From NCBI GenBank assembly GCA_009885955.1, contig VFJS01000003.1:62001-126000 (forward strand): a stretch of DNA of 64,000 nucleotides, in the 5' to 3' direction. The notes below the pieces were generated by a model. It saw only the letters and a program-made list of their open reading frames with translations, was not told where the DNA came from and did no database searches. This document shows positions 4,197 to 43,486 of this stretch, piece by piece. The stretch is from Spirochaetia bacterium. GTDB lineage: Bacteria > Spirochaetota > UBA4802 > UBA5550. The translations under genes and the position numbers were made by a program. How positions within the stretch are numbered: position 1 is the first letter of the stretch; the number at the start of each line of letters is the position of its first letter.

Positions 4197-5732
4197 TTAC
4201 ATCCCCGTCCGCATGTTCATGGGCTGCGCGATGAGCCACAGGCTCAGAGCGGAAAAGAGCATCATCATGACCGTCACCGGCACCTGGCTTTTTATGGCCG
4301 CCTTTTCATCGGTGAACACCTGGTGGGCATGCCTGTGGGATATGTATATGCCGAAGAGGTGCCCGGTGATAATCAGTGCCACCTGGATGAACCAGACCGT
4401 GTTCAGTTCCAGCATGGGCTTAATCATAATCCCCGCAGTTCCGAAGATGTTCCAGCCGTAGCCGAAGGGGTTTGATGCAAGGACGATGAGCTTCTGGCCC
4501 TCCATGAAAAAATGCTCCACGTTGTGCGCCAGGTGGTAAAACAGGGCAATGGGTATGAGCCCGTAGGCGTACCTGTTGAAGAGGCCCGGGTAGGAAGGGT
4601 GCCCCGAAAGCTTCCGTGAAATCCCGATGAACAGGGCATAGAGGATAACAGGGATTGACAGTGACAGGATCATGGCAATGGTGAAGGACGGGATGTAGCC
4701 AATGGACAGGGACCGAGAAGTGAAAGACAGCAGTATCTTCCAGTTTGAAGTCATGCTGAGGCCGTGGAAGGCCGTAATAGAGAAGAGCACCAGTGCCAGG
4801 TACGCCTCGTCCTTTTTCGGATCCCTGATTTTTATAAGATCGGTGCCGAAGGGCCGCAGGTAAAATCCCACGTTGTCATGGGGGCATGTGCGGAAACACT
4901 CAGCACACATGATGCAGTAGGTATTTTCAGACATGGTGGAGAGGTTCTGTTCAGTTGGGCAGGCGTAGCCCCTTTTGTTTCCGCTGAAACAGTCCATGTT
5001 CCTGCATGCCCGGCATATTTTTTTTGATTCGGACCTCACCTCCACCGGGGAGAACATGGAGTAGAGCCCGCTTATCCTCCCGACGAGGCACCCGTAGCGG
5101 CAGAATGATTTTTTTTCAAAGAGCATGGCAGGGATAAAGACCAGTCCGAACATGAGTATGCCCAGGGTGGCAGTGGCTTCGGGATCCGATGTGATGTTGT
5201 ACCCCAGTTCTATCCATGTGAGGAGTATGAAGAGCAGCGTAGCCGGGTAGATGTTCCTGAGCGCTGTGGGCCATTTCCATCCCATGTTCACAATGTCCTT
5301 GTTTATCCTGAAAATAGAAAGCCTTGTGAGCCAGTCCGAGAGGGCGTACCACGGGCAGGCATAGCACCAGAGCTTTCCGAAAAAAAGGACTATGAAGATC
5401 AGGCCGATCCACCATATGTTCCATGTGAGCACCGGCGCTATGTTTTCGCCAGGGAGCTGTTTCCCGTAAAATCCGGTAAGGAGTATGAGAAAAAAGAGGG
5501 CAAGGACAACCGCCTGGTTTGCGGCCTGGAAACCCCTCGATTTTATGAGCGATTTAATGACAGGGAAACGGGAGAGCTCATATTTTCTGTATCCTTCAGC
5601 GGGGATTTTATTTTTTCTCACGTGCCTGATGAATTCAATGAGCGCGAAGGATACGACAATGATAATTGCTATTGATGTGTAGTAGAGCCAGTCCGGGATG
5701 CCGGCCATGGTTGAATGGATTTCCTGCGCCAT
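4197..5732 (-). CDS. Membrane polyferredoxin, NapH/CcoG/NosR-like
   Basis: The product has about 511 residues if translation starts at the ATG at 5732, 10 nt after the preceding stop. The reading frame is open to 5780. It has several membrane helices at each end. Between helices are W-C-Y-A-C-P and S-F-C-R-Y-G-C-L cysteine motifs like those of NosR/NapH/CcoG. A soluble middle part has a C-R-A-C...C-F-S-G...C-P set and a C-I-M-C-A-E-C-F-R-T-C-P ferredoxin motif, enough for two [4Fe-4S] clusters. It is the last gene of the respiratory cluster and is convergent with the FliG-C-like gene (23 bp apart). Electron transfer across or at the inner membrane is the likely role; the partner is unknown. 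Confidence 0.75.
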   Translation of the reverse strand: MAQEIHSTMAGIPDWLYYTSIAIIIVVSFALIEFIRHVRKNKIPAEGYRKYELSRFPVIKSLIKSRGFQAANQAVVLALFFLILLTGFYGKQLPGENIAPVLTWNIWWIGLIFIVLFFGKLWCYACPWYALSDWLTRLSIFRINKDIVNMGWKWPTALRNIYPATLLFILLTWIELGYNITSDPEATATLGILMFGLVFIPAMLFEKKSFCRYGCLVGRISGLYSMFSPVEVRSESKKICRACRNMDCFSGNKRGYACPTEQNLSTMSENTYCIMCAECFRTCPHDNVGFYLRPFGTDLIKIRDPKKDEAYLALVLFSITAFHGLSMTSNWKILLSFTSRSLSIGYIPSFTIAMILSLSIPVILYALFIGISRKLSGHPSYPGLFNRYAYGLIPIALFYHLAHNVEHFFMEGQKLIVLASNPFGYGWNIFGTAGIMIKPMLELNTVWFIQVALIITGHLFGIYISHRHAHQVFTDEKAAIKSQVPVTVMMMLFSALSLWLIAQPMNMRTGM

Positions 5733-5742
5733 GCTCTTATGG

Positions 5743-6306
5743 TTAACCCCTTTTCTTCTTTTTGATTCCCACAAGGACAAAAATTACCAGGAATACAAAC
5801 CCGGCCGCGAAGGGGACCAGGCTGAAATTCGTCTGGCCAATGACAATGGGAAAGGGAATCTTTTCAAAAAAACCGGGCCTTGGCTCAAAGGTCACATTGA
5901 CAAGGTACTTTTCAGCTTCGGGGAACTGGTAGCTCAGGGAGTACTTGTTGAATTCCGGATCCACTGTTCTCGTTTTAACCTTCTCGTCTTCAATGAAGAA
6001 GAAGAATAGGGTGCTTATGGATACCGTGATCTGCCTATTGTAGACGGCGCCGGTTTTGTTGTCCACGATATATATTTTTATCCTCACCGTGTCCCCGGGC
6101 CTTGGGTTTCCCGGGTACGTGGAAAAGGAGACGGTGTAGCCCTCGGCATCGGCATCGATCACCATGGAGGGGATCTGCGGGTACTCTTTCGTGTACATGT
6201 AGTGGGGGAGGCCCAGCTGGTGGTGTGCGTGGAGGTGGATATGAAATATGGGCAGCAGGATTAATGCCGCGGTAACTGCAAGTATAGGTTTGATACGTAT
6301 ATTCAT
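5743..6306 (-). CDS. Secreted, C-terminally anchored FixH/YtkA-like protein
   Basis: This 187-residue protein has a signal peptide (about 1-27), a His-rich mature start (H-L-H-A-H-H), a beta-sandwich-like middle, a membrane helix near 160-180 and a basic K-K-K-K-R tail. The middle segment has the P-x-P-G-D-T-V-x-I-x-I pattern of FixH/YtkA-type periplasmic domains. These often accompany cytochrome or copper maturation genes. The family call is by pattern only. It sits between the second NapG-like gene and the polyferredoxin gene, with a long palindromic repeat (6349-6453) in the gap before it. The N-terminal histidines could bind metal, which is inference. Confidence 0.55.
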   Translation of the reverse strand: MNIRIKPILAVTAALILLPIFHIHLHAHHQLGLPHYMYTKEYPQIPSMVIDADAEGYTVSFSTYPGNPRPGDTVRIKIYIVDNKTGAVYNRQITVSISTLFFFFIEDEKVKTRTVDPEFNKYSLSYQFPEAEKYLVNVTFEPRPGFFEKIPFPIVIGQTNFSLVPFAAGFVFLVIFVLVGIKKKKRG

Positions 6307-6487: not shown

Positions 6488-7081
6488 TTATCCTGTACTT
6501 TCCGGGGCATGGGCCCGTATCCTCACTGCCTTTACCTTCTGCAGGCAGACCTCTTCGCAGAGTCCGCACCCCACGCATTTTTTGTCAATTACTACAGGAT
6601 ACCTCTGCATTTCAAGCTTTATTGCGTTAACCGGGCATACCGTGTAGCAGGCCCCGCATCCGCCCTGGTTTATGTAGGGGAAACACAGCTTTTCTAAAAT
6701 GTAGGCCATGCCCATCCTCACGTCTTCCATTTTTTTTACCGGCATGATGGCCCCGGTGGGGCAGACCGTGGTGCATTTAAGGCAGAGGATGCATCCCCTT
6801 TCCGCGGCAATGACATAGGGTGTATGGGGGCGCACCCTTCCTTCCATGCTTTCAGTAAAAAATTTTATGGCCTTCACCGGGCATGCCTCGGAGCAGATCA
6901 TGCAGCTGTTGCAGCTCCGGAGGAAGTCCTTCTCGTTGACGGCCCCCGGCGGCCGGAGGTAGTTGTTCTGCATGTAGTTTACCTGGTAGGCTTTCATCCC
7001 TTCGTCTCTGTTTTCTTTAGAACAGCACAGGCCCGGGGCAATGAAGGACGCGGTTTTTACGATAAAGTCGCGGCGGTTCAA
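6488..7081 (-). CDS. NapG-like periplasmic ferredoxin (second copy)
   Basis: This 197-residue polyferredoxin has a short twin-arginine leader (N-R-R-D-F at residues 2-6) and four ferredoxin-type cysteine sets: C-N-S-C-M-I-C-S-E-A-C-P, C-I-L-C-L-K-C-T-T-V-C-P, C-G-A-C-Y-T-V-C-P and C-V-G-C-G-L-C-E-E-V-C. This matches NapG/MauM proteins with up to four [4Fe-4S] clusters. The start is TTG at 7081, overlapping the TGA of the NapH-like gene (TTGA), with an AAGGA site upstream. An R-P-P-G-A segment near residue 43 is shared with the other NapG-like protein of the cluster, suggesting paralogues. Confidence 0.82.
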   Translation of the reverse strand: MNRRDFIVKTASFIAPGLCCSKENRDEGMKAYQVNYMQNNYLRPPGAVNEKDFLRSCNSCMICSEACPVKAIKFFTESMEGRVRPHTPYVIAAERGCILCLKCTTVCPTGAIMPVKKMEDVRMGMAYILEKLCFPYINQGGCGACYTVCPVNAIKLEMQRYPVVIDKKCVGCGLCEEVCLQKVKAVRIRAHAPESTG

Positions 7082-8025
7082 GTTGCTTTTCCTTCTTCCC
7101 CGTTATCCAGCGGTTTGTTTTTCCGGGCAACAGGAATTCCAGGCAGGTTAAAAATATATTTCAGGGCACCGGGCTTGCATGTTCTCATGCATTCACTGCA
7201 CTGGTCGCACTCCATGCCGGGCTGTACTGACATTGGCTTCAGGTCATAAGGGCACACCGGATCGCACTCCCCGCACTTTGTGCAGAGCGCGTCGTCCCTT
7301 TTTATATCGAGCCTCCTGAATTTAGACAGGGCGATGTAAATGGCGCCGCCCGGGCAGATGTACCTGCACCACCACCTCCTTGAGAGTATAAGCTCAAAGA
7401 AGAGTATGAAGGCAAGGAAGTAGAAGCTTGTGCTCCATATGCCGTAGTAGGTCTTGTAGAATATCTCCCTGCTTATTATGGCCGGGGGATAGATGAGCGA
7501 CAGGAGGGGCATGCCCATGAAGAAAGCGGTCAGGATGCCGAGAATGAGTACCAGGTATTTCGTCTTTCTTTTAAAGAGGATGTCCCTGGAATTGTATTTT
7601 ATTTTCAAGAGCAGTTTACGCAGCCTGTCGTTTAAGTCCATGAGGAGCCCTGCCGGGCATATCCACCCGCAGAAGACCCTTCCGAATACAAGTGTAAAGA
7701 AGACGGGAACCAGAGCCGAGAGCAGGAGGGGGAGATAAAAGTAGACCGGCACCACCGTTGATTCAAAGGCTGCAAGGGGGTCCGATATCTTGAAGCCGTA
7801 TATTTCCGCAGACCAGACCGATCCCTTGACCCTGTGGGTCAGGTCTATCACCTTTTCCCTGTCCATTCCCTTGAACGACCTGTGGATCAGGGAGAGCAGG
7901 GGCGATTCATCCATGGATATTCTGTTTTTCTGTTCCAGCATGATGCCGTAGTAGTTGACTGCCGGTACAAGGAGTATGAACAGCCAGACTGATACCTGGA
8001 TAGATCTTCTTATTGTATTTATCAT
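7078..8025 (-). CDS. napH: NapH-like membrane ferredoxin
   Basis: The 315-residue protein has about four membrane helices. Cytoplasmic-type cysteine motifs include G-W-I-C-P-A-G-L, R-Y-I-C-P-G-G and the ferredoxin sets C-T-K-C-G-E-C-D-P-V-C-P and C-D-Q-C-S-E-C-M-R-T-C-K-P. This is the layout of NapH, the quinol-oxidising partner of NapG in Nap systems. It overlaps the downstream NapG-like gene by 4 nt and follows the upstream one after 6 nt, so it is flanked by two NapG-like genes. Whether it serves both is not known. Confidence 0.8.
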   Translation of the reverse strand: MINTIRRSIQVSVWLFILLVPAVNYYGIMLEQKNRISMDESPLLSLIHRSFKGMDREKVIDLTHRVKGSVWSAEIYGFKISDPLAAFESTVVPVYFYLPLLLSALVPVFFTLVFGRVFCGWICPAGLLMDLNDRLRKLLLKIKYNSRDILFKRKTKYLVLILGILTAFFMGMPLLSLIYPPAIISREIFYKTYYGIWSTSFYFLAFILFFELILSRRWWCRYICPGGAIYIALSKFRRLDIKRDDALCTKCGECDPVCPYDLKPMSVQPGMECDQCSECMRTCKPGALKYIFNLPGIPVARKNKPLDNGEEGKAT

Positions 8026-8031
8026 GTTAAC

Positions 8032-8673
8032 CTAAGAGGGAATAACCTTGATTGCCTGGGGATAGTGTATGCAGACCCTTTCGCAGAGGCCACATCCCAC
8101 GCATTTTTCTTTATTGATTTCCGGCCTTTCCCATATGGACACCTTGATTGCCTCATCCTGAAGAGGGCACGCCCTGTAGCATATGCCGCATGACCGGTTG
8201 TTGTAGGAGTAGCAGATGTTTCTGTCAACCACTGCCTTTCCCATTTTCACGCCGCCGATGATTGAAGCCATGTCGTCTTTCAGCGGCTGAAGGGCTCCAG
8301 ACGGGCAGGAGTTGTTGCATTTCATGCAGAGCATGCACCCCTGGAGCCTTGGGAGGATGAACGGGGTCTCGGAATTCTCCCCGGAACCCATGCTGAAGAA
8401 TTGTATGCACTGGTTGGGGCACACCTGCCCGCATATTCCGCACCTCATGCACTTTCTCAGGAATTCGCTGTTTGCCAGGGCTCCCGGGGGCCTGAGGAAC
8501 CTCATCCCTTTTGATCCTGAAAATTTGAGGTAGCTCGAGGTGAAAAGGGTGCCGGCCAGAACTGAGACCAGCTTTAAAAAATCCCTTCTGCCTGTCTCCT
8601 TCCCGGCCGCCCTGCTGAATATTCCTGAGAACAGTCCTTTTTTCGGTTCTGTTTCTTTATCAGTCTCCATCAA
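8032..8673 (-). CDS. napG: NapG-like periplasmic ferredoxin (first copy)
   Basis: The 213-residue protein has a cytoplasmic lead of about 27 residues, then a twin-arginine motif G-R-R-D-F-L-K-L and a hydrophobic stretch, so Tat export is expected. Four ferredoxin cysteine sets follow (C-M-R-C-G-I-C-G-Q-V-C-P; C-M-L-C-M-K-C-N-N-S-C-P; C-G-I-C-Y-R-A-C-P; C-V-G-C-G-L-C-E-R-V-C). This is typical of NapG. It starts 14 nt after the stop of the NapA-like gene, so NapA, NapG and NapH would be made from one message. Confidence 0.84.
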   Translation of the reverse strand: MMETDKETEPKKGLFSGIFSRAAGKETGRRDFLKLVSVLAGTLFTSSYLKFSGSKGMRFLRPPGALANSEFLRKCMRCGICGQVCPNQCIQFFSMGSGENSETPFILPRLQGCMLCMKCNNSCPSGALQPLKDDMASIIGGVKMGKAVVDRNICYSYNNRSCGICYRACPLQDEAIKVSIWERPEINKEKCVGCGLCERVCIHYPQAIKVIPS

Positions 8674-8686
8674 ATTCTATCCGGCA

Positions 8687-11422
8687 TCATACCTTGTCAT
8701 TAATTTTTTCCACCCTCGCCGCAAGTTTTTTAAAATCCGACTGCCCCGATACCGGATCAAAAGCCCTGTGGGAAACGGCATTGACAAGCCATTTGTTTTC
8801 CCTGGGATCCGAGCTGTCTGCAACCGAGAGGTTCCAAGGAGAGAAGAGCTGGCCCTCGGCAACATTGTTCCTTGCAGGTTTAACGCGGCTGTTTGTGCCA
8901 AGGGAAACCTGTGCCTCATAGCTGCCCCTCCTGGTGGATAGCTTTACCCAGTCCCCGTCCTTCAGCCCGAGCCTTCTGGCGTCATTCTCGTGCATTTCGA
9001 CATACTGGGTTATCAGCAGTTTTTTGTTCGTTGCAGACCGGATGGTCTTAGCCGTATGAAAATGTTCATACACAACACCCAGGCTCAGCCAGAAGGGGTA
9101 CTTGTCTTTCGGGATCTGGTCTCCGGGCACCTTTGAGTATTCAAAATCGGGCATGTCCGGAGTAAGGCCGTAGTCCCTCACTTTTATCATGAGGTCCATG
9201 TTATTTATTACAAGGAAGTTCTTATCAACGCCGACCTTTCTCAGGTCCTCCATAACATCCTTGTATTTCGAATAGTCCTGTTCACACAGCTTGAAGTTTG
9301 CCAGGCCGGTGGGTGTCCTGAAATTTCCGTAGGGCCTGTCCTTCCATCCCTTTTCCTGGTCCATGTAGCGGCGGGAGGTTCCCCCTGCCAGTGCTATCTC
9401 AGCTGTCGGCGCAGGCCACTGGACGCCCCTGGTCTCCCGGAGAATCTGGTAGGGCGATACATTTTTCTGCTTAGCCGCATCAAGAATTCCGGTTAAATCG
9501 GAATCGGAGCCCTTACTGGCAAGGATGAGTTCAATGAAGACCTCTTCAACGTTGTAGAATCCGTTTTTGTTTTTTGTATAAGGGAATATCTTCTTCCCGT
9601 CCAGGCCCAGCAGGTCGGCGATATGTATCCCCTTGTCGATAACGATGTCAAGGTCGGGCTTGCAGTTCACCGGCGGCTCAGCAGCCTTGTCGGTGACATA
9701 GAGCCTCCTCTCGGACTGTATGTACACTCCGCCGCATTCCCCCCATGTTGCAGCAGGGAAAATGACATCGGCATAGAGGTTGTTCGGGGCATGCCGGTAA
9801 ATCTCCTGAACAACGACGAACATGTTATTCAGCGCCGGCCTTACCAGGGTCTTTGTTTCCGGAAGGTCTATGTGCGTCGCATAGATGAGGAACATGGCCC
9901 TCACCTTGTTTTTATCGCTGTCGGCAAGGAGCCCCCGCTCCATCATCCCTATGGCATAGCCGATGTTGGGAGCAACGGCAACCTTCCGTAAGTGGTCCTC
10001 GGTAGTATTCCACATTTTGGCAAAATGTTTTATCCCTTTATCGTTGAACTTGTCCCCTGTCTTGAAGCCCTGGTTGAATGGCAGCCTCCCGGTGAGCCCT
10101 CCGGTAAGCCGTTCCCCCATGGCGTTCGGCTGGCCGGTCTGGGAGTGGGGGCCGCAGCCCGGCCTTCCTATGTTGCCCGTAAGGAGATGGAGGTTGATGA
10201 TGCTTATGACATTGTGCTGCCCGTGAACGCTCTGGTTGTACCCGATCCCCCACCAGGTGAGGACGCCCCCGGTGCCCCTCTTGTTCCCCTTCCTCGTGGC
10301 CTCGGCCCATTTGTTTGCTATGCCCCTGATGAAGTCGACGCTCAGCCCTGTCACCTCGCCCGTAATGGCCGGGTTGTACCTTGCAAGGATTCCGTCAATG
10401 TACTCCTTCCAGTTGCTGGTATTTTTTTTCATGAAGTCCCACGCGATGACGTCGGGGTACTCTTTTATCAGCATATATGCAATATTATTCAGGAGGGTGA
10501 TATCGGCGTTCGGTTTTAACTGGGCGTGTATGGAGGTATTCGGGTTAACATCCTCAAAGCCCATGACAGACCCTGTCCTCCTCGGGTCGACGACCATTGT
10601 GGCGATGCCCGATTTTTTTTTGTAATCGGCCACCCTCCAGAAAATGATAGGATGCGCCTCCCTCGGGTTGTGGCCCCAGAAGGAAATGAAGTCGCACATC
10701 TCTATGTCATCATAGCAGGTGGGAGGGGTATCCGATCCCAGTGTCTCAAAATATGCCGTTACCGCGCTGGTCATGCACATCCTGGCATTGGCCTCCATGG
10801 TGTTGGACCCGATAACGCCTTTCATGAACTTGTTTTCAAGGTACTGCCCCTCCAGGGTGAGCTGCCCTGACCCGTAAAGCCCGATGCAGTTCCCCTCGTA
10901 TTTTTTTACAAGATAGGCTATTTTTACCGCTGTCATATCACTTGCCGCATCGTAGGGAACCTCTTCCCAGAGATTGTCATCAAAGGAATCCTTTGTTTTT
11001 GATGAGAACTCAAGATTGCCATGGCCGGGCTTTTTCCACTCGGCCCAGGTATCCTTTCTCACGAGAACCTTTGTGAGCCTGTCCACGTAAATGGGCTCGC
11101 TTGCCGTAAGGCCTTTTATGCACTGCATCCCTTTATTGGTGGGATGGTTCTTGTCCGGTACCATGCCCACTATTTTTCCGTTTTCAGACTGGATGAGGGT
11201 TCCGCATCCCACGCCGCAGTAGGGGCATGCTGATTGGAAATTTGTCTTGATTTGTAAATTATCCTTTGCTTCCTTTATTTCATTCTCTCTCCCCTTGCAT
11301 CCAATGACGTTCAATGCCGTAACAGCCGAAATGCCTGCCGTGGCTTTCAGGACATTCCGCCGGGTCAATTTTGAATTTTCTTTTTTTTCCGCCATGTCTG
11401 TATCCTTTATCTGTTTTGTCAT
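8687..11422 (-). CDS. napA: NapA-type periplasmic molybdoenzyme, probable nitrate reductase
   Basis: The 911-residue protein starts with a Tat signal (T-R-R-N-V-L-K). The [4Fe-4S] motif C-P-Y-C-G-V-G-C-G is completed by a downstream cysteine in Q-C-I-K-G. The segment N-A-R-M-C-M-T-S-A-V contains the cysteine expected to bind molybdenum. The segments T-G-Q-P-N-A-M-G-E-R and R-L-P, and the C-terminal D-F-K-K-L-A-A-R-V-E-K, match NapA closely. Length is somewhat above NapA (about 830). The ATG at 11422 has an AGGAGG site 9 nt upstream. NapB, NapC and NapD genes are absent from the cluster. Nitrate is the likely substrate, but another oxyanion cannot be excluded from sequence alone. Confidence 0.85.
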   Translation of the reverse strand: MTKQIKDTDMAEKKENSKLTRRNVLKATAGISAVTALNVIGCKGRENEIKEAKDNLQIKTNFQSACPYCGVGCGTLIQSENGKIVGMVPDKNHPTNKGMQCIKGLTASEPIYVDRLTKVLVRKDTWAEWKKPGHGNLEFSSKTKDSFDDNLWEEVPYDAASDMTAVKIAYLVKKYEGNCIGLYGSGQLTLEGQYLENKFMKGVIGSNTMEANARMCMTSAVTAYFETLGSDTPPTCYDDIEMCDFISFWGHNPREAHPIIFWRVADYKKKSGIATMVVDPRRTGSVMGFEDVNPNTSIHAQLKPNADITLLNNIAYMLIKEYPDVIAWDFMKKNTSNWKEYIDGILARYNPAITGEVTGLSVDFIRGIANKWAEATRKGNKRGTGGVLTWWGIGYNQSVHGQHNVISIINLHLLTGNIGRPGCGPHSQTGQPNAMGERLTGGLTGRLPFNQGFKTGDKFNDKGIKHFAKMWNTTEDHLRKVAVAPNIGYAIGMMERGLLADSDKNKVRAMFLIYATHIDLPETKTLVRPALNNMFVVVQEIYRHAPNNLYADVIFPAATWGECGGVYIQSERRLYVTDKAAEPPVNCKPDLDIVIDKGIHIADLLGLDGKKIFPYTKNKNGFYNVEEVFIELILASKGSDSDLTGILDAAKQKNVSPYQILRETRGVQWPAPTAEIALAGGTSRRYMDQEKGWKDRPYGNFRTPTGLANFKLCEQDYSKYKDVMEDLRKVGVDKNFLVINNMDLMIKVRDYGLTPDMPDFEYSKVPGDQIPKDKYPFWLSLGVVYEHFHTAKTIRSATNKKLLITQYVEMHENDARRLGLKDGDWVKLSTRRGSYEAQVSLGTNSRVKPARNNVAEGQLFSPWNLSVADSSDPRENKWLVNAVSHRAFDPVSGQSDFKKLAARVEKINDKV

Positions 11423-11559: not shown

Positions 11560-13590
11560 CTACTTTTCTATCAGCCTTGTCTGCCATGTTCGGATATACG
11601 AAATAACATCGTTTATCTGCACTTCATTCAGCTCCTCGTATCCCTGGGAGCCCTTCGCCCATGACCTCATGGCAGTGCCGCTCCTCCCCTGGGCGATGGT
11701 TCCCTGTAAAAATCCGTTTGTCGCCGCGTTCAGGAACTCCTGGTTGTTCAAAGACGGGCCGTGTATCCCTTCACCCTTCATTCCGTGGCATGAGGCGCAC
11801 ATGCCTTCGAACATAACCTTTCCCACCGTCGGGCTTCCGGCCACAATGTTGGAATAGATGAACCTCGGCCTGATATTTTCCCTGCTCCTGAGATAGGCTA
11901 CAATGCTGTTGATTGCCGGCTCCTTCAGCTGTGCCATGCCCTGTGATCTTTTTATCCAGCTCTGCATTGCGCTCCCCTCCCTTCCGTTCGTTATGGACTG
12001 GTAGAGGAAATCGTCTGATGCCGATTTCAGGAAGTCGATGTTCAGAATGGCAGGGCCCACACCGCCCTGGCCCTGCGTTCCATGGCACTGGGAGCACATG
12101 GTGTCAAAAGATTCCTTTCCTTCTTCAACGATCCCTGCGATCCTTCTTCCTGTCCCGTAGACAGAGGGAATGGACTGCCAGCTCCTGACATATGTCATGA
12201 TGTCTGCTATTTCATTCCTGTTGAGCTGTGTCCATGAAGGCATGGCGGTGTTTCTCCTCCCCCTGACAATGACCGTATACAGATATTCATTTGAGGCAAT
12301 GGAAAGAAAATTCTGGCTTCTGAGTTTAGGCCCTATTGCCCCGTCGCCCTGAACCCCGTGGCAGGTACTGCACCTGGATCTGAAAAGGGTGTTCCCGACT
12401 GCGGCATTCCCGCCGGAAGCCATGACCTCCTGGAAGGAGGGGGCTTTCGCCTTCCATCTCATGATATATTCCGTGAGGGAATTTATCTCTTCGCCTGAGA
12501 GGTTTCCTCCGCCCTTGCCCCATGAGGACATGGGCCTGCCACCCCTGCCGTGAGCTATGCTGAATCGTATCATATCCTCCGATGCCATTGAGAAGAAATC
12601 CTGGTTGTTCAGGGCAGGGATGGTCTCTTTGAATACCCGGTAGTCCTTTCCTTCGCCGTTCTCCCCGTGGCACGGGGAGCAGTAAGCCATGTATGCCTCT
12701 TTCCCGAGAAATTTTTTCCGTTTTCCCTTGTACTCTTCAAGCGCGTGGACAGATACATATTTAATCGGATAATCCATTGGGTAGAGCCCCATGATGTATG
12801 TGATCAGTCCATTCAGTTCACTCTCTTTTAAGAGGTACTTCGGCATGGTTGACCCGGGCACCACTGCCTGGGGATCCAGGAAATGCTGTTTGAGCCAGTT
12901 TATTACCGTATGTTCGCCCCTGATATTCTGAAAGGGGTAATTGCTCTTTGTCTTAATGCCGTTCGATGACAGGTCCGGGCCGACAGACCCGCCGGTGCCG
13001 CGGACCTTGTGGCAGCCCAGGCACCCCTTGCTGATGAAAAGGTCCCTTCCCCTGTTGAGTGTTTCCATCCCTTCCAGTGTTATGGCTTCGTCAAATGCCG
13101 AGAGGTGGCACTTCCCGCATGACGATTCCACGATGCCCAGGGGGAGAACTGGCGATTCCCAGTGGGAATCATGGAGGTTCCCGAAGGCGTCATTTTTTGT
13201 TATTCCCCGCCCCTGCCCCTCATGGCATATGGTGCATCCGAATTTTTCTACCGGGTGGTATTTCAGGTAAAATCCGCTGTGGCTCCTGTGCGGCACCGGC
13301 CTGTCTGCCATCTCAATATTGTCAATGCCGTTGTGGCAGTTTATGCACCGGTCGACCCGCTTGAAGTCGTTCAGGATTACCTGTTTCATTTCAATGGGGA
13401 AGTTTTTCGATGCCGCGGCCTGCTGTTCGGTCTTTGCCCCGGCAATGGACAGTTTTTTAAACTCCTTCTGGTAATTCACCCATTCAGTGAAAAAGCTCTC
13501 GCCCAGAATAATCATCAGCAGAATCAGAATGCTGATTGAGCCGGCGGCTACGGTAAGTTTCTGATAAAATTTTTTATAATGATTTTCCAT
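11560..13590 (-). CDS. Membrane-anchored eight-heme cytochrome c
   Basis: Starting at the ATG at 13590 (GGAAGG site 10-13 nt upstream; the frame is open to 13608), the protein has about 676 residues. An N-terminal membrane anchor is followed by eight CxxCH heme sites. The first three (CINCH, CTICH, CGKCH) are closely spaced, like a small multiheme domain. The other five (CLGCH, CSPCH, CSTCH, CSQCH, CASCH) each begin a class-I cytochrome c domain of roughly 90-110 residues, with distal methionines such as T-M-P, P-M-S, A-M-P and A-M-Q/R. It lies between cytochrome b and NapA. The obvious inference is a periplasmic wire from the Rieske/cytochrome b complex to NapA or other acceptors. Confidence 0.85.
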   Translation of the reverse strand: MENHYKKFYQKLTVAAGSISILILLMIILGESFFTEWVNYQKEFKKLSIAGAKTEQQAAASKNFPIEMKQVILNDFKRVDRCINCHNGIDNIEMADRPVPHRSHSGFYLKYHPVEKFGCTICHEGQGRGITKNDAFGNLHDSHWESPVLPLGIVESSCGKCHLSAFDEAITLEGMETLNRGRDLFISKGCLGCHKVRGTGGSVGPDLSSNGIKTKSNYPFQNIRGEHTVINWLKQHFLDPQAVVPGSTMPKYLLKESELNGLITYIMGLYPMDYPIKYVSVHALEEYKGKRKKFLGKEAYMAYCSPCHGENGEGKDYRVFKETIPALNNQDFFSMASEDMIRFSIAHGRGGRPMSSWGKGGGNLSGEEINSLTEYIMRWKAKAPSFQEVMASGGNAAVGNTLFRSRCSTCHGVQGDGAIGPKLRSQNFLSIASNEYLYTVIVRGRRNTAMPSWTQLNRNEIADIMTYVRSWQSIPSVYGTGRRIAGIVEEGKESFDTMCSQCHGTQGQGGVGPAILNIDFLKSASDDFLYQSITNGREGSAMQSWIKRSQGMAQLKEPAINSIVAYLRSRENIRPRFIYSNIVAGSPTVGKVMFEGMCASCHGMKGEGIHGPSLNNQEFLNAATNGFLQGTIAQGRSGTAMRSWAKGSQGYEELNEVQINDVISYIRTWQTRLIEK

Positions 13591-13657
13591 GATGACTCTA
13601 CCTTCCATCCTTATAATGATGCCAGTGAGAATGCCTGCATTTCATAATTCTATAAAT

Positions 13658-15229
13658 CTAATGGACAGGCCACTGTGACGGCGACCAGTAAAAGTCCCAG
13701 TTCGGCCCCCTGAAATACGTCCCCATGATTGTCAGGATTATGAATCCTGCAAGGAAGCATGTGAAGAGGGCTACCGCGCCCATCCGCCTTGATCCAGTGA
13801 GCTTTATGATATAGACCGACCATGCTGCAAAGAGAAACACAATTATTGTCCCGGGGTTGAGAAAGGTGATTATAATCTGTGGAATTCCGGGGAACCAGTT
13901 CCTGAGCCAACCAAGCTTTACGGTAAAGGCCAGGATGAGTATGAGGCTCACCGCGGAGAATAATACCGATTTACCTGCCGTGCTCCTCCCTTCGGCCCCG
14001 GAAAACCATACGCCGAATTCCCTCTCCTCTTTGTCAATGTAGGGGATGAGGGCAAGGCCGATCATCACGATGGCCGGAATTCCGATGCCTCCCATGAAAG
14101 CGGAGTAGGAGACAAGTTCCTGGAGCCCCAGGAAATACCATGGGGCCTTTGCCGGGTTTTCCGGCACCGACGGATTGGCTATCTCCTTCAGGGGCGCGTC
14201 AAAAAAATAGCTCAGGAACAGCATCGCTGAAAGGGTAACCATGAGCACCGATATTTCGGCCCAGACGCCCGTAGGCCACATGGGAACCGTGTTGTCAAGG
14301 TCCAGGTCAACCTGCGGAGTTCTGTCTTTCACAAGTTCCATGAGGCCGTAGGTTTTATTTTTATCAGCGGCTGCGGATTTTTCCTGTTTCCCTTTGATCC
14401 CGTCAGCCATGTCTGCAATGGATTTCATGTTCTTTATTATTTCATCGGCATTGTCGGGCCTGCTGAGTCCGCCGTCCTTCCGTATCCTCCAGAAATGTAC
14501 CCCGATCAGGGTAATGCAGATGATGGGGAGGATGATGATATGAAGGAGATAAAAGCGCGTGAGGGCCTCCTGCCCGATGGTGTTGCCTCCAATGAGGAGC
14601 TGCTTGTTAAAGGAGCCTATGTCTATGAACCTTGTTATGCTCAGCGCGTTTGTAATTTCCGAGAATGATGCCGCTATGTTGGCCCCGATGGTCACCGCCC
14701 AGTATGCCAGCTGGTCCCAGGGGAGCAGGTACCCGGTATAGCTGAGCCCCATTGTTATGGTGAGGAGGAGAAGGCCGATGATCCAGTTGAATTTCCTCGA
14801 CCTCTTGTAGGAGCCGGTATAAAAAACGCGCACCATGTGGAGGAGCACTGCGAAGACCATTCCGTGCGCGCCCCACCTGTGGATGTTACGGATGTATCTC
14901 CCGTAATCCACAACAAAGGATATATCCTTCACGTTGATGTATGCGAGTTCCGTTGTCGGATTATAGTATACCATGAGAAATATTCCCGATATGGTCAACA
15001 GGAGAAACAGGAAAAATGAGATGAGGCCGAGTCCCATGGTAAATGCCGGCTTCAGGCTGTAGAGATGTATGCGCGCAGACTGAATGTGGAGGAAAAAATT
15101 CTGAAATATAGCCTGGGACCTCTCCCGTGCCGACCTGGGGGGCCATGGGTGCCTCAGGAAGGATTCGAGAAAGGATCCCTTCAGTTCTTTCAATGTTGCC
15201 GTGATTTCTTTCATTCCGTAATTTGCCAT
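13658..15229 (-). CDS. Cytochrome b of a bc1/b6f-type complex
   Basis: The 523-residue protein has the full cytochrome b core. The heme histidine pairs appear in I-H-R-W-G-A-H-G / L-L-H-M-V-R-V-F and in F-Y-L-L-H-I-I-I / G-V-H-F-W-R-I. A G-Y-L-L-P-W-D-Q segment follows, then a C-terminal subunit-IV-like part with extra helices. The quinol-oxidation loop, usually PEWY, reads K-A-P-W-Y-F-L-G. A GGAAGG site is 6 nt before the ATG. It is followed by the eight-heme cytochrome and preceded by the Rieske gene, so the three form the core of a quinol:cytochrome c oxidoreductase. Confidence 0.9.
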   Translation of the reverse strand: MANYGMKEITATLKELKGSFLESFLRHPWPPRSARERSQAIFQNFFLHIQSARIHLYSLKPAFTMGLGLISFFLFLLLTISGIFLMVYYNPTTELAYINVKDISFVVDYGRYIRNIHRWGAHGMVFAVLLHMVRVFYTGSYKRSRKFNWIIGLLLLTITMGLSYTGYLLPWDQLAYWAVTIGANIAASFSEITNALSITRFIDIGSFNKQLLIGGNTIGQEALTRFYLLHIIILPIICITLIGVHFWRIRKDGGLSRPDNADEIIKNMKSIADMADGIKGKQEKSAAADKNKTYGLMELVKDRTPQVDLDLDNTVPMWPTGVWAEISVLMVTLSAMLFLSYFFDAPLKEIANPSVPENPAKAPWYFLGLQELVSYSAFMGGIGIPAIVMIGLALIPYIDKEEREFGVWFSGAEGRSTAGKSVLFSAVSLILILAFTVKLGWLRNWFPGIPQIIITFLNPGTIIVFLFAAWSVYIIKLTGSRRMGAVALFTCFLAGFIILTIMGTYFRGPNWDFYWSPSQWPVH

Positions 15230-15271: not shown

Positions 15272-15739
15272 TCAAACATTAAGCGTGATCACCTCGTCCA
15301 CGGTCTCCCTGGAGTTTACCACTAACTGGCCGTCTGGCGCCATGCTCACTTTGAACCAGTCCAATCCCCGGGGAGCAGGACCGGCCGTAACCTTCCCTGT
15401 TTCATTGAATTTTGATCCGTGGCACGGGCACGAGTATCCGTTCCCGGTGTTCTGGACTATGCAGCCAAGGTGGGTGCATATAGCCGATAGGGCCCTGAAT
15501 CCAGATGAGTCCCTTAGTATGAATACTTTCTGTTCCGCAATATAATTGGCGGAGTTTACTGCAAAGTCATTGGGGTAGCCGATTTTGAAAATTGCCGGAG
15601 GCTCATTCAGCACTTTCGGCAGGCACGATTTCATTGTAACCAGGCAGAAAAGCCCGGCCGTTCCGCCCACGGCGCCAATCGCAGCCTTTTCGAGGAAGTC
15701 CCTCCTGTTCAGCTGTTTTTCTTCCTTAGCATCATTCAT
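15272..15739 (-). CDS. Rieske iron-sulfur protein
   Basis: The 155-residue protein starts with a Tat-type leader (N-R-R-D-F-L-E-K) and one hydrophobic helix. The Rieske motifs C-T-H-L-G-C and C-P-C-H-G-S-K-F supply the Cys2His2 ligands of a [2Fe-2S] cluster, and the P-A-P-R-G-L motif follows. An AAGGAG site precedes the ATG at 15739 inside the end of the upstream oxidoreductase gene (8-nt overlap). It would be the Rieske subunit for the adjacent cytochrome b. Confidence 0.93.
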
Positions 15740-17621
15740 AAAATGACTCCTTGAAATTATATGATTCCATTGTGACTGCGCTCACAGGGCACCTTTCAGC
15801 GCAGAGGCCGCAACGTATGCACCTTGCCTCATCCTTGATTATGGCCCCGCCGGAGGTAATCGGCATATCACCATACCTGTTTTTTATAAGGGCTTCCAGC
15901 TCCCCGTTACCTTTAAGTTTTTCAGCTGATACCAGTTTCAGGCACGACTCCGGACAGACATCGGCGCAGCCGCCGCAAAGTATGCATTTCTCCCCGTTGA
16001 AAATGGTATTGATCGAACAGTTGTAACAGCGGCGGCTCTGCGCAATTCCCTGGTTATGGCTGTATCCCTTCTCCACGGAGAGATCCATGGAAAAGCGCCT
16101 CTCTGCTGGTGAAAGTGACGGGACCCCCTCCCGTTCAATATTTTCATAGCTCCATTCCCTTGCGTAGTCCTTAATTTCAATGTGGGATGACGTCAGGGAG
16201 GATTGGATTTTCTTTTTTGTTATGTACTGATAAATGTTCATGGCCGCCTTTTTGCCGCTGGCTATGGCATCTATCATGAGCCCCGGCCCCAGGGATATGT
16301 CCCCGGCCGTAAATACATCCGGGGCGCCGGTCATCGTTTTTGTAGGGTCTGTGACAAGCTGCCCCCTTTCATTCAGTTTTATGTCATCGCTCTTGATAAA
16401 TGAAAGGTCCGATGTCTGGCCCACGGCAAGTACAACATTATCAGCCATGATCTCTATTATTTCGTTTTCATTAAATTTCGGAGAAAACCGTCCGTTTTCA
16501 TCAAAGACCGAGAGGCAGCGTACAAATTTAACCCCTCTGACTTTTCCAGTACCGTCCACCAGGATCTCCCTGGGGCCCAGTGAATTGTATCGTATAACGC
16601 CCTCCTCATCCCCTTCCCGTATCTCCACTTCGTCGGCAGGCATCTCTTCAAGGGATTCCAGGCAGGTGAGCACCACCTCCTTAACGCCCTTCTGCCTCAT
16701 GACGGTCCTGGAAATGTCAAGCTCCGTCTGGGTCTGTCTCACCAGTGTCCTTGCCACGTCGTAGGCCACGTTTCCGCCGCCTATGACTATTACCTTTTCT
16801 CCGAGCTTCACTTCGAACCTGAGCGCCACGTCCCTCAGTATATCGATTCCGCCGAGAACCCCCGGGGCATCGATGTTTGCGACCGGAATAGACCTTGATT
16901 TTTTCAGTCCCACGGCTATGACCACGGCGTCGTGCTTTTCCCGGAGCTCCTTCATTTCAATATCTTTCCCTACTGCCGTATTGCATTTTATTTCCGTTCC
17001 CATGGCCTTTATAACTTCAACTTCGGCTACAATCAGGTCCCTGGGAAGCCTGTACTCCGGGACTCCCAGGTAGAGCATCCCTGCAGGGACAGGTTCCATT
17101 TCATATATTACAGGCTTAATCCCCATAAGGCAGAGGTCGTGGGCGCATGCAAGCCCGGCCGGGCCAGCTCCGATGATCCCAACGGTAGGGGCATCCGCGC
17201 CGGGCCCGGCATTCCCCCCTGTGAAATGGCTGAGGAAGGCCCGTATGCTTTCCACATCGCTGCATTCATCAGCGCCGCTGGTGAATGTATGTATCAGTTC
17301 CATGGGGTTAGAGGCGTATCTGCCCGATTCCACACCGAATTTTTCTGTCACGAAACGTTTCAGTGCGCGTATGGAGACGGACCTGTCCACAGAACCCCTG
17401 CGGCATTCTATTTCGCACGGGGCGCCGCATATACGGCCGCAAATCGACGCAAGGGGATTAGGCGCCCTGGCAATGAGATAGGCCTTTTCAAGGTCACCTT
17501 CTGCAATGGCCCTCACATAGCCCCGGGAGTCGGTATGCACAGGGCAGGCATTCTGGCATTTTATCTGTTTTTTCCAGTAGGCATCGTCAGGGATTTCTAC
17601 CGTGTATATGTTTTCTTTCAT
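15732..17621 (-). CDS. GltD-like FAD/NAD(P) oxidoreductase with ferredoxin domains
   Basis: The 629-residue protein resembles the small subunit of glutamate synthase. An N-terminal cysteine-rich FeS domain (C-Q-N-A-C-P ... C-G-R-I-C ... C-E-I-E-C) is followed by a FAD fold ([10 protein letters not shown]) and an NAD(P) fold (V-I-G-G-G-N-V-A). The C-terminus adds two ferredoxin sets ([12 protein letters not shown] and [12 protein letters not shown]). No glutamate synthase large subunit is adjacent. It lies 16 nt after the TSUP gene and overlaps the Rieske gene. A role feeding NAD(P)H or ferredoxin electrons to this chain is plausible but unproven. Confidence 0.82.
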
Positions 17622-34745: not shown

Positions 34746-36845
34746 TCATACCGTGATGTATTTTTTCTCAAAATCTGATGCCGTGAGAGGCTCGGAGTAG
34801 TAATATCCCTGGAAGAATTCGCATTTTTTCTCCTTCAGATATTCCAGCTGCCCGGAACTTTCTATACCCTCGGCAACGACTTCATAGCCCAGGTTGTTTG
34901 CCAGGCTGATTATGGAATTAACGACAATTTTTGCCTCTTCATTGCCCGGGAGCTTGTCCACGAAGGACTTGTCTATTTTCAGAACATCAATGGGGTAGGC
35001 AATCAGGTTGCTCAGGGATGACAGCCCGGTCCCGAAATCGTCCATAGCTATTTTGATCCCCAGGGTTCGAATCTTGAAAAGCTTCATAAGGGCTTCTTTG
35101 GAATTTTCAATGATCCCGCTTTCAGTGATTTCGAATTCAACCATCTCCCTGTTGACGCCGGTTTCCAGGATTATTTTTTCGATGGTATCCAGGAGTTCCG
35201 GGTCCTTGAACTGCGCAGGGGCGAAGTTGATGGCGACCCTTTTTGAGAACCCCATGCCGGCCCATATCCTGATCTGTTCACAGGCCTTCCTGAGGATTAT
35301 ATATCCGATGTCAACTATCATGCCGTTTTTTTCCACAAGGGGGATGAATATGCCCGGAGGGATGAGGCCTCTTTTAGGTGAGCGCCACCGTATAAGAGTC
35401 TCAGCCCCGGACAGCCGGTCCATTGCATCAAATTTTGGCTGGTAAAATGCCTCAAATTCCCCTTTGGTTATGGCGTCCTTCAATTCCTCTTCGAGGCGCA
35501 GGTTGTAGATGAGTTCATCGTGCATTTTCGGGTCAAAGAGGCAGTAACCCCCTGTGCCCGCCTCCTTTGCCCTGTACATGGCTGCCTGGCTGTTGTTTAT
35601 CAGCTGTTCCACCTCGTCACCGTCAACGGGAAAGACTGAAATCCCCATGGATGCCGTTATATTGAAACTCCTGGTTCCCACTAAAAAGGGCCCGGAGAAG
35701 AGCTCCTGTGTCTTTTTGATGATATCTTTGAGGTCATAGGACCTTGCGATGTACGAGAGGAGTATGATGAAAACATCACCGCCGTAGCGGGCCACCAGGT
35801 CATCCCCCCTGAAGGAGTTTTTGAGCCTCTCCCCGATTTTATTCAGGAGCATGTCCCCGGTCTCCCTTCCGTGCAGGTTATTGATATTTTTATACCTGTC
35901 AATGCCCAGGCTCATAACACCGAATATTTTGTCCTGCTTCCTCTCCTGCACTTTCACGATCTCAAGCTGAAGCCTGGTCTTGAGGAGGCTGATGTTCGGC
36001 AGCCTCGTTACATGGGTGTCGTAGAGCTGGTAATGGGCAGCCTGTTCCTCGGCCTTTTTGAGATCGGAGATGTCCCGGGCATGGAGGATGATGCCGTTTA
36101 TCAGCGGGTCGTTCAGGATATTTGAGGCGTTGACTTGAATATCCCTCCACGAGCCGTCTTTGTGCATGTATCTGAATTCGGCGACTGACAGGGCAGCGCA
36201 GCTGCTTATGCATGCCAGGAGTTTTTTTTCCACGTACCCCCTGTCATCGGGGTGGATATAGTCCAGAATGGAATTGCCCACTGACTCGTACGGGGAAAAT
36301 CCGAATAATTTCTCACTGGAATCGCTGATATACTGAATGATCCAGTTTTCATCAATTATGGCAATGACCTCGGTGCTGTTTTCAATTATCTTCCGGAACA
36401 CCTTCCCGCTTTCATTCAGGGCATCCCTGTATCTATTAATTTTTGACAGGTCTTCCACCGAGAGGAATTTAAGGGTCTCGCTCTTGTGATGGAGTTCGCC
36501 GAATTTTATCTTCACCGGAATTTTCAATCCGCTCATGTGAAGGAGTTCCATCTCCTCTGCCCTGATAACGCCTGATTCAAGCCTATTCCGGAATATTTCC
36601 GCATATTCGACCGGTACATGGCGGGAAAAGTCCTCCCCGTACATTTGCTCTATGCCGCTTCCCAGGAGGCTGATTAAGTCGGAGTTGGCATAAATTATTT
36701 CGCCGCTGCTGTCATAGATGATAAGCCCCCCGGCAATCTGTTTAATGAGGTCCCTTGTAAAGTAGCGGTTCATCTGCGGGAGGTTCCCCACATTTTTATT
36801 TTCTGAAGTTCGGGCTGTTTCTGATGTATTAATGTTTTTTTTCAT
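34746..36845 (-). CDS. PAS-PAS-GGDEF-EAL protein, probable c-di-GMP phosphodiesterase
   Basis: The 699-residue protein has two N-terminal PAS domains (about 25-130 and 150-265), then GGDEF and EAL domains. The GGDEF signature reads G-G-D-V-F, so the catalytic glutamate is lost and cyclase activity is doubtful. The EAL domain keeps E-T-L-I-R, the D-D-F-G-T-G loop, K-I-D-K-S-F-V and V-A-E-G-I-E-S, so it is probably an active phosphodiesterase with a regulatory GGDEF. There is no membrane segment; sensing is cytoplasmic. It is a single-gene unit with its own promoter and terminator. Confidence 0.88.
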   Translation of the reverse strand: MKKNINTSETARTSENKNVGNLPQMNRYFTRDLIKQIAGGLIIYDSSGEIIYANSDLISLLGSGIEQMYGEDFSRHVPVEYAEIFRNRLESGVIRAEEMELLHMSGLKIPVKIKFGELHHKSETLKFLSVEDLSKINRYRDALNESGKVFRKIIENSTEVIAIIDENWIIQYISDSSEKLFGFSPYESVGNSILDYIHPDDRGYVEKKLLACISSCAALSVAEFRYMHKDGSWRDIQVNASNILNDPLINGIILHARDISDLKKAEEQAAHYQLYDTHVTRLPNISLLKTRLQLEIVKVQERKQDKIFGVMSLGIDRYKNINNLHGRETGDMLLNKIGERLKNSFRGDDLVARYGGDVFIILLSYIARSYDLKDIIKKTQELFSGPFLVGTRSFNITASMGISVFPVDGDEVEQLINNSQAAMYRAKEAGTGGYCLFDPKMHDELIYNLRLEEELKDAITKGEFEAFYQPKFDAMDRLSGAETLIRWRSPKRGLIPPGIFIPLVEKNGMIVDIGYIILRKACEQIRIWAGMGFSKRVAINFAPAQFKDPELLDTIEKIILETGVNREMVEFEITESGIIENSKEALMKLFKIRTLGIKIAMDDFGTGLSSLSNLIAYPIDVLKIDKSFVDKLPGNEEAKIVVNSIISLANNLGYEVVAEGIESSGQLEYLKEKKCEFFQGYYYSEPLTASDFEKKYITV

Positions 36846-36963
36846 ATGGGTCTGCTGACATCATCCTGATCCGCATTCCGGCTGGCTGTAATCGAGACTG
36901 CCGCCCCCGGCCCGGTGCCTTAATCTATATGGATTATGATGAATTATTTATTTTGTTTTATAT

Positions 36964-36993
36964 ATAATAATAAGGACTTATTGTTTAAGTCAA
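36964..36993 (-). promoter_or_regulatory. Promoter of the GGDEF/EAL gene
   Basis: On the minus strand TTGACT (36988-36993) and TATTAT (36964-36969) are 18 bp apart, about 120 bp before the ATG at 36845. The surrounding 36846-37437 stretch otherwise holds only AT-rich DNA, one repeat arm and a plus-strand promoter. Confidence 0.4.
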
Positions 36994-37178
36994 GAATAAA
37001 TAATAAAAAAACAGCGTAGTTTATATCCCGGCAGACTTGGAGAATAGGGTTGAAAAAGGATTTTTACTTTTTTAATGACTATATCGGCCTTGTAACCAAT
37101 ATTTTTATCTATAAAAAGGATGAGATTGATAAAGGCCGAATTCCTGGGGCCGAAAATGCCATGAGGACCGGCATTGGA

Positions 37179-37220
37179 ATGCCCTCACCCCCGGCCCCTC
37201 TCCCAAAATAGGGAGAGGGG
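37179..37220. repeat. Lone arm A of the CCCTCACC family (E3)
   Basis: ATGCCCTCACCCCCGGCCCC followed by a TCTCCC / GGGAGAGGGG hairpin is the same as arm A of elements E1, E2 and E4. No arm B is found within 300 bp, so this is a solo copy. Confidence 0.75.
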
Positions 37221-37321
37221 GGTGTATCATCAGAATACATTATATAAAAAACAGTTTGCTCGATTGCTGAGAAAAAATTCAATCCTTGCTGTCTTGTAAA
37301 AAGCCCAACTCTAATTTTTTC

Positions 37322-37350
37322 TTGACAAATTAAACAAGTGTTAATAATTA
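37322..37350 (+). promoter_or_regulatory. Promoter of the thioredoxin/envelope operon
   Basis: TTGACA (37322-37327) and TAATTA (37345-37350) are exactly 17 bp apart. They lie about 80 bp before the ATG at 37438 and 120 bp before the TTG at 37469. Confidence 0.45.
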
Positions 37351-37468
37351 TCAAATTAATGAAATGGAAAATGTGTGTTTCACTTTCATTAAAAAATAAA
37401 ATAACATATAAAATTTAATTGTCAAGAAATTGAACTAATGGAAAAATTTTTATCTAAAATTAGGCAAT

Positions 37469-38119: not shown

Positions 38120-38130
38120 GGTTCTGAAAG

Positions 38131-39990: not shown

Positions 39991-40037
39991 CAAGAAAATA
40001 ATTGTTAGCCATGATACATGGTTGTTCGTATAGACAG

Positions 40038-40213
40038 TGTCTGAACCATGATTTACTTGATTAACGGATTACTTTGATTAAGAGATAAGGGTAATGAAAA
40101 AATTAGCTGAATCATAGGTTGTGATTATGAGAATGTTAGATTTAATAAAAATGCAGAATCTATGATACAGAAATCAAGCCAATCCTTAAATCATGAAAAT
40201 CACGGTTCAGACA
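40038..40213. repeat. TGTCTGAACC inverted element (176 bp)
   Basis: The left end TGTCTGAACCATGATTT is inverted at the right end (AAATCACGGTTCAGACA with changes). The similarity runs about 42 bp into each end (words TGATT, GGATT and TTGATT in the same order). It ends 46 bp before the lipoprotein ATG. A right-arm-only copy is at 43487-43528. Confidence 0.8.
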
Positions 40214-40259
40214 GTTGATTAAAAAGGTATATTTTAAAAAATTAATAAAGGTGACCATA

Positions 40260-41990: not shown

Positions 41991-42045
41991 TGAAGTTTAA
42001 GATCAATACTAAAATAGATTCTAAAAAATAATATTGGAGATACTT

Positions 42046-42765: not shown

Positions 42766-42784
42766 GATTAAGAGAAATTTGGAT

Positions 42785-43367: not shown

Positions 43368-43397
43368 AAAACTGCCTTTCCAAAAAATATTGTTTAT

Positions 43398-43426
43398 GAT
43401 ATAGATAAAATTTAATTTATAGTCAA
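43398..43426 (-). promoter_or_regulatory. Promoter of the toxin-antitoxin pair
   Basis: On the minus strand TTGACT (43421-43426) and TATATC (43398-43403) are 17 bp apart, 30 bp before the antitoxin ATG. The remaining 43427-43673 gap contains a repeat half and AT-rich DNA. Confidence 0.45.
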
Positions 43427-43486
43427 GTGAAAATTAATAATATTATGAGGAATAAATTATTCTTAGAATGAAAATGATGAACCAGC

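Follow-up and report, generated by a model that had tools for sequence, protein, structure and literature searches.

An octaheme cytochrome c as a probable link between a Rieske/cytochrome b complex and a NapA-like enzyme in a Spirochaetia bacterium

The octaheme cytochrome c described here, encoded on a 64,000-nucleotide stretch of contig VFJS01000003.1 of a Spirochaetia bacterium (the window), probably serves as c subunit in a menaquinol-oxidising Rieske/cytochrome b complex of the anammox kind, one that passes electrons to a NapA-like enzyme without NapB and without a clustered NapC. Its gene lies in a minus-strand cluster in the order TauE-like protein, NAD(P) oxidoreductase, Rieske protein, cytochrome b, octaheme c, NapA-like enzyme, NapG, NapH and a second NapG (Table 1), with successive intergenic gaps of 16, -8, 42, 49, 137, 13, 6 and -4 bases (the NAD(P) oxidoreductase and Rieske genes thus overlapping by 8). 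Assignment of the octaheme protein to a bc-type complex, which had been made in a sequence-only reading of the window, is supported by the adjoining Rieske and cytochrome b genes; the NAD(P) oxidoreductase and the Nap-like genes of the cluster went unremarked in that reading.

Table 1. Positions of the cluster genes and of the parts of the octaheme protein in the window
Feature	Position	Strand	Basis
NAD(P) oxidoreductase, GltD-like, N- and C-terminal Fe-S cysteine motifs	15732..17621	(-)	Pfam, NCBIfam, motif scan
Rieske protein: RR signal, CTHLGC, CPCHGSKF	15272..15739	(-)	Pfam, PDB matches, motifs
Cytochrome b: b6-like half fused to subunit-IV-like half	13658..15229	(-)	Pfam, PDB match, alignment
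Octaheme cytochrome c, 682 aa, probable c subunit of Rieske/cytochrome b complex	11560..13608	(-)	ORF list, Pfam, heme positions
N-terminal hydrophobic segment, residues 15-45, likely membrane anchor	13474..13566	(-)	hydropathy scan
Triheme domain, residues about 70-181	13066..13401	(-)	alignment A3
Class-I domain 1 (heme 4), conserved core domain, invariant Met255	12724..13071	(-)	domain identities, domain tree, alignment
Appended array, four class-I (CcoP-like) domains, hemes 5-8	11563..12723	(-)	Pfam, heme positions
NapA-like molybdopterin enzyme, RR signal	8687..11422	(-)	Pfam, NCBIfam, PDB match, motif scan
NapG-like ferredoxin, RR motif	8032..8673	(-)	NCBIfam, motif scan
NapH-like membrane ferredoxin	7078..8025	(-)	NCBIfam, motif scan
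Second NapG-like ferredoxin, RR motif	6488..7081	(-)	NCBIfam, motif scan

Predicted promoters (19) and terminators (18) are found in numbers near those of shuffled sequence (15.5 and 17.6, respectively) and so provide no evidence on operon limits; the 137-base gap between the octaheme c and napA genes could accommodate a promoter. The cluster genes from the second NapG to the NAD(P) oxidoreductase are 50-53% GC against 46% for the window, but recent transfer of the cluster is not concluded, since 4-kb blocks of the window span 36 to 51% GC. (Two such blocks, at 36001-44000, have 36-39% GC against the 46% of the window.) Downstream of the second NapG gene, at 4197-6306, lie mutually overlapping genes for a protein of 187 aa, hydrophobic at both ends, and a membrane protein of 527 aa that matches Fer4_5; no clear family was found for either.

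The octaheme gene had been read as spanning 11560-13590. Its 11560 end is retained; position 13590 is the second ATG (residue 7) of an open reading frame that reaches 13608. CxxCH motifs at residues 88, 125, 164, 196, 310, 413, 505 and 604 (spacings of 37, 39, 32, 114, 103, 92 and 99) bear out the original description of eight motifs, of which the first three form a cluster and the last five lie in class-I cytochrome c domains; shuffling the protein 5000 times gives a mean of 0.0098 CxxCH and a maximum of 1. Pfam concurs, with Cytochrom_C matching in five stretches (4.9e-48) and Cytochrome_CBB3 in four, and the multiheme model PF22113 covers residues 84-202. Residues 15-45 form the sole hydrophobic segment in a simple hydropathy scan, so the protein is probably membrane-anchored with its hemes in the periplasm. 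In the triheme domain, His110 and His118, which lie outside CxxCH, are invariant in all nine aligned rows, and no third invariant His of this kind is present in those rows. Every class-I domain has a Met at the place expected of the distal heme ligand (STMPKY and AMPSW, for example). The AlphaFold2 model of the protein, from nine alignment rows, is poor (pLDDT 62.6, pTM 0.28), with pLDDT under 50 in the triheme domain, and is not good enough to reveal the long periplasmic wire that the earlier reading had envisaged.

Repeated duplication of one monoheme domain had been suggested as the origin of the five class-I domains. This fits only domains 2-5, which are 31-42% identical among themselves; domain 1 has only 20-23% identity with them and is closer (36, 35 and 29%, respectively) to the first class-I domains of relatives at loci L042, L088 and L089. 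In an unrooted tree of 33 domains, taken from 10 of 14 cut-up proteins, one side of a long branch (support 100/99) consists of 12 rows, ten of them first domains (counting as such the lone class-I domain that the tetraheme relatives L039, L041 and L044 each have) and two the second domains of L101 and L092. As the bootstrap had not settled and 19 of the tree's 30 inner branches are open, no branching order emerges among domains 2-5, so that the domain-to-domain alignment proposed earlier for duplication order sets domain 1 apart and yields no order for the rest. Since domain 1 joins the first domains of other species, three hemes plus one are the conserved unit and the remainder is an addition. 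By these comparisons, the triheme domain has a conserved partner in the heme 4 domain, to which the other four domains are appended as an array.

His 117, 131, 230 and 245 of cytochrome b, presumably the heme-b ligands, are invariant in 11 of 11 aligned rows. The N-terminal His48 is equally invariant and may bind the extra heme that has been proposed for anammox complexes. At the place of the heme cN ligand before helix A (Cys35 of b6), no Cys appears in the alignment row of the window protein, whose b6 match starts at residue 67 versus residue 36 of 1q90; the cytochromes b of L046 and L047 have a Cys there in the same alignment. Hydrophobic stretches between residues 320 and 506, in the C-terminal half, may be read as about five helices. 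No membrane helix is predicted in the NAD(P) oxidoreductase. Among solved structures, the two best matches of the Rieske protein are 9rk4 (Kuste4569, 6.3e-23) and then 9rk3 (Kustd1480, 8.4e-17), both from the anammox bacterium Kuenenia. Kustd1480 has a measured potential of +335 mV, with a Tyr near the cluster absent and a Ser retained (PMC12954380); the CPCHGSKF motif of the window protein likewise lacks the Tyr and has the Ser.

The best PDB match of the NapA-like enzyme is Desulfovibrio desulfuricans NapA (1.4e-70), and its RMCMTSAV segment, which is also present in L117 and L042, aligns with the Cys region (RxCM) of that protein. The aligned Cys is, we assume, the Mo ligand. On the other hand, scores with the two NapA equivalog models (314.4 of 904 and 289.8 of 930.55 bits) are far below cut-off, and among NCBIfam models formate dehydrogenase alpha scores marginally higher (320 of 666 bits, also below cut-off) and ranks first. 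The protein is therefore at most a divergent Nap, with nitrate its putative substrate. An RR motif followed by a lipobox-like Cys (VIGC, LAGC) is seen in the NapA-like proteins of the window and of L088 (7197-9263 in that locus), which may thus be lipid-anchored; no such combination was seen in the stretch covered of the L042 protein.

What the genome provides besides this cluster bears on how the NapA-like enzyme could be reduced. No NapB match was found in the draft genome (98.35% complete; the E. coli control was positive). NapC-family matches number two, both on contig 55 beside other multiheme proteins, and none is in the Nap cluster. (The contig 55 locus, at 6507-13658 of L106, is a second multiheme cluster, encoding proteins with 11, 5 and 10 CxxCH; two proteins there have the NapC-family matches.) All matches to PF00034 (5) and PF13442 (4) lie inside the octaheme gene, and one place only matches the cytochrome b. 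The single COX1 match belongs to an aa3-type oxidase cluster ~300 kb away on the same contig, in whose listed open reading frames no CxxCH occurs. A genome-wide count of CxxCH (396, against 159 in a control) is too unspecific to serve as evidence.

A scan of genome contigs with the whole octaheme protein as query detected no relative; a second, with the N-terminal alignment as query, detected 16 loci. In the organism's own phylum, 45 of 296 genomes (its own included) match at E<=0.001, mostly through single domains, and only two of the 295 others match better than 1e-20 (L044, titled Spirochaetia, and L046, titled Caldithrix), so the protein is rare there. Matches are found in 20 of 195 genomes of the G298 phylum (at 1e-20) and in 75 of 297 of the G304 phylum (G304 is titled Acidobacteria; E<=1e-25). 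Tabulated relatives have 4 to 10 hemes, and the earlier view of a many-domain bc cytochrome as unusual finds no support across the wider family.

Neighbouring genes were tabulated for 102 loci: the 16 of the N-terminal alignment scan and 86 of 87 fetched stretches (L090, which shares its contig with L042, was omitted). The fetched stretches comprise the 60 best-scoring places of the G304 phylum, 20 of 22 distinct G298-phylum loci (without G337 and G342) and some further matches; they are not a random sample. Removal of L053 (no match), of L182, L183, L185, L186 and L052 (two motifs in frame), and of the copies L149, L043, L048 and L049 left 92 loci, among which the frame runs off the contig in L131, L132, L143, L145 and L100. 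Where more than 4.5 kb lies upstream of the c gene (75 loci), Rieske and cytochrome b genes are present in 75/75 and the NAD(P) oxidoreductase in 68/75 (it was not seen in L173, L184, L094, L099, L100, L047 and L051).

The number of hemes varies with the neighbouring terminal enzyme. (Queries for partners were drawn from loci of the table, with NosZ from L140, molybdoenzymes from L089, L101 and L088, and CcoN from L155 and L181, so that partners of other kinds would be missed.) Five-heme proteins adjoin NosZ at 23 of 24 loci and CcoN at one; seven-heme proteins adjoin an 1147-aa-type molybdoenzyme at 20 of 22 and CcoN at two. Six-heme proteins (12 loci) are found beside a type-II DMSO-reductase-family (NarGH-like) enzyme at five loci, with no partner found at six and a contig end at one. 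The partner of nine-heme proteins is NapA at two of three loci, the third being at a contig end, and the one ten-heme protein also adjoins NapA. Eight-heme proteins (24 loci) have no partner found at 20, a contig end at two, NapA at one and the 1147-aa-type enzyme at one; four-heme proteins (six loci) have no partner found at four and a contig end at two. In all, 30 of the 92 loci lack a partner recognised by these table-derived queries, 20 of them eight-heme. Motif spacing separates some classes further in the 87-locus table, the spacing classes having been defined after the data were seen and L128 placed by hand: six-heme proteins with spacing 116,102 adjoin the type-II enzyme in 5/5 cases and those with spacing 96,100 in 0/6, and the seven-heme proteins with spacing 109,82,113 are the two at loci with cbb3 genes. 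(The 96,100 class, L131, L133, L134, L136, L138 and L139, keeps the core in five of six loci, L131 running off its contig, and no recognised terminal enzyme lies beside it in any of the six.)

The identities of these partners were checked against family models. Five of five NosZ genes tested exceed the TIGR04246 cut-off. (Pentaheme c Rieske/cytochrome b clusters with the NAD(P) oxidoreductase lie directly before clade II, Sec-dependent NosZ at L043:11215-13080, L096:10973-12832, L135, L140 and L150.) The alpha and beta subunits adjoining the six-heme protein of L089 exceed the cut-offs of TIGR03479 and TIGR03478. The 1147-aa molybdoenzyme of L101 (11354-14794) and its relatives, which has a TAT-like N-terminus, scores 293 of 985 bits, under the type-II DMSO reductase cut-off. 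NapA follows a c gene for 8-10 hemes at four loci besides the window. The closest arrangement is at L117, with cytochrome b, nine-heme c, NapA (60% over 922 aa), NapG (49%) and NapH (36%) in the same order. L118 has NAD(P) oxidoreductase, Rieske, cytochrome b, nine-heme c and the start of NapA (53% over 111 aa, where the contig ends); L088 has the same set with an octaheme c and NapA (35% over 735 aa); at L042 (titled Planctomycetota), a ten-heme c lies between the last part of cytochrome b and the first part of NapA (48% over 224 aa, again to the contig end).

In a cytochrome b tree of 83 rows (made by a quick method, with a long-branch warning on the window row), the loci with NosZ, with the type-II enzyme and with CcoN each form one group, so the correlation of heme number with partner is largely inherited. 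Two changes are needed for NapA and three for the 1147-aa-type enzyme. NapA-linked cores occupy two places, the window beside a fused-cytochrome b group that includes type-II and 1147-aa-type loci (99), and L088 and L118 elsewhere; the starred branches of the tree force two changes, which points to two or more pairings with NapA. The loci L123 and L124, with 7 and 8 hemes and the 1147-aa-type enzyme, adjoin NapA loci on the tree; array length alone thus does not fix the partner.

Tethered class-I domains stand in for soluble cytochrome c in QcrC of the actinobacterial bcc-aa3 system. The octaheme protein resembles QcrC in carrying such domains; QcrC differs in having two hemes and no triheme domain, and the NCBIfam QcrC match of the octaheme protein (90.7 of 200 bits) is below cut-off. 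Rieske/cytochrome b diversity is reportedly reviewed by ten Brink (2013) and Dibrova (2013), and a 2017 paper on Wolinella is said to name a Rieske/cytochrome bc complex in its title, in the context of NosZ.

The Kuenenia complexes Kuste4569-4574 and Kustd1480-1485, as described (PMC12954380), combine an NAD(P) oxidoreductase and a c subunit of six or eight hemes with a b6-like cytochrome b and subunit IV. The window shares with them the closest Rieske protein in the PDB and, by description, the NAD(P) oxidoreductase, b6-like cytochrome b and subunit IV, and a multiheme c (8 CxxCH here) in place of cytochrome f; as at Kuste4569-4574, a proposed reductase is encoded in the same cluster. In contrast to Kuenenia, that partner is NapA-like rather than a HAO-like octaheme protein, the cytochrome b and its subunit-IV half form a single protein, and the heme cN Cys is lacking. 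A Rieske/cytochrome b complex as electron source for Nap without NapC has a precedent in Campylobacter jejuni, where a qcrABC deletion mutant given physiological donors can neither grow on nitrate nor reduce it; the authors consider direct QcrC to NapB transfer likely, at 2 H+ for every 2 electrons, and mention a comparable finding in Wolinella (PMC6195509). C. jejuni differs in having NapB and a QcrC drawn with two hemes, and the available text mentions no NAD(P) oxidoreductase. Caldithrix abyssi, as described (PMC5317091), likewise has Rieske and cytochrome b genes beside NapA, NapG and NapH, with NapB and NapC absent; these are proposed to act via NapM, a tetraheme protein, and no type-1 monoheme cytochrome c gene is reported in close vicinity. 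The individual parts of the present system are already known. In the open-access literature searched, which covers few subscription papers and so does not establish absence from print, no description was found of NAD(P) oxidoreductase, Rieske/cytochrome b, a triheme-plus-array c and NapA in one cluster, nor of a pairing of heme-array class with terminal enzyme.

The proposed electron path would be the following. Quinol, presumably menaquinol, would be oxidised at cytochrome b, one electron passing by way of the Rieske cluster to the triheme plus heme 4 core; the four appended class-I domains, acting as a tethered cytochrome c, would carry it to the co-encoded NapA-like enzyme. The array would thereby replace NapB and NapC and could make periplasmic nitrate reduction energy conserving. 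Electron exchange, in either direction, may link the low-potential hemes of cytochrome b with the NAD(P) oxidoreductase, which is probably cytoplasmic. Arguing for transfer from the array to the NapA-like enzyme are the contiguous same-strand cluster, the order of NAD(P) oxidoreductase, Rieske and cytochrome b genes kept in relatives, and the c-NapA linkage at four other loci; the absence of a NapB match, the confinement of the PF00034 and PF13442 matches to the octaheme gene, and the single cytochrome b match; and the four invariant heme-b His together with the qcrABC precedent (PMC6195509). Arguing against it are NapG and NapH, which could feed NapA, the two NapC-family matches elsewhere, the aa3-type oxidase as another potential client, the scores of the NapA-like enzyme below NapA cut-offs, the relatives lacking a recognised partner (eight-heme ones above all), the draft state of the genome, and the 137-base gap.

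A further reading, compatible with transfer from the array to NapA and possible although on the doubtful side, is bifurcation of the anammox type, in which the two quinol electrons part, one reaching nitrate through the heme arm and the other being driven uphill onto NAD(P)+ by way of the flavoprotein. Consistent with it are the presence of the flavoprotein at 68 of 75 loci, the Rieske matches to Kuste4569 and Kustd1480 with the Tyr/Ser pattern of the latter, and the invariant His48 of cytochrome b, possibly an extra-heme ligand. However, the flavoprotein was not seen at the remaining seven loci and could equally donate electrons from NAD(P)H, the window cytochrome b has no Cys at the heme cN position of b6, and bifurcation is only a proposal even for anammox (PMC12954380).

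That the array serves mainly as tethered cytochrome c for the aa3-type oxidase, in the manner of QcrC within the bcc-aa3 supercomplexes of actinobacteria, with NapGH feeding NapA, is unlikely. The lone COX1 match with no CxxCH in adjoining frames, the lack of any other class-I c gene by PF00034 or PF13442 in the genome, the sub-threshold QcrC match and the cbb3 oxidase as next enzyme in 3 of 92 relatives would all fit; yet the oxidase is ~300 kb off, NapA is the next gene, and the order c then NapA recurs at four other loci. It is distinctly improbable that NapGH feeds NapA with the Rieske/cytochrome b complex merely a genomic neighbour: NapG and NapH do directly follow NapA, and a quinol dehydrogenase role has been put forward for NapGH, but that role is questioned where Qcr is needed (PMC6195509), and the c-NapA linkage recurs in L042, L088, L117 and L118.

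Passage of electrons from the octaheme protein to the NapA-like enzyme, the preferred reading, may be one case of something more general. Conceivably, although we regard it as rather doubtful, NAD(P)-linked Rieske/cytochrome b complexes form a modular class that is widespread far beyond anammox bacteria, in which a conserved core (flavoprotein, Rieske protein, cytochrome b, triheme domain plus heme 4) is joined to class-I arrays, varied in number and spacing, that lead to NapA, NosZ, NarGH-like and other molybdoenzymes or cbb3 oxidase, quinol bifurcation driving the reduction of NAD(P)+ while that of nitrate or nitrous oxide bears the cost. In PMC12954380, the case for NAD(P)H formation by Rieske/cytochrome b complexes is built on anammox bacteria; the similar genes found in several phyla next to those for nitrate-reductase-like enzymes and nitrous oxide reductase would allow the proposal to be tried elsewhere. 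They would likewise point to a way for Nap and clade II NosZ to conserve energy in the absence of NapB or NapC, and the layout of a heme array would become a hint to the terminal enzyme.
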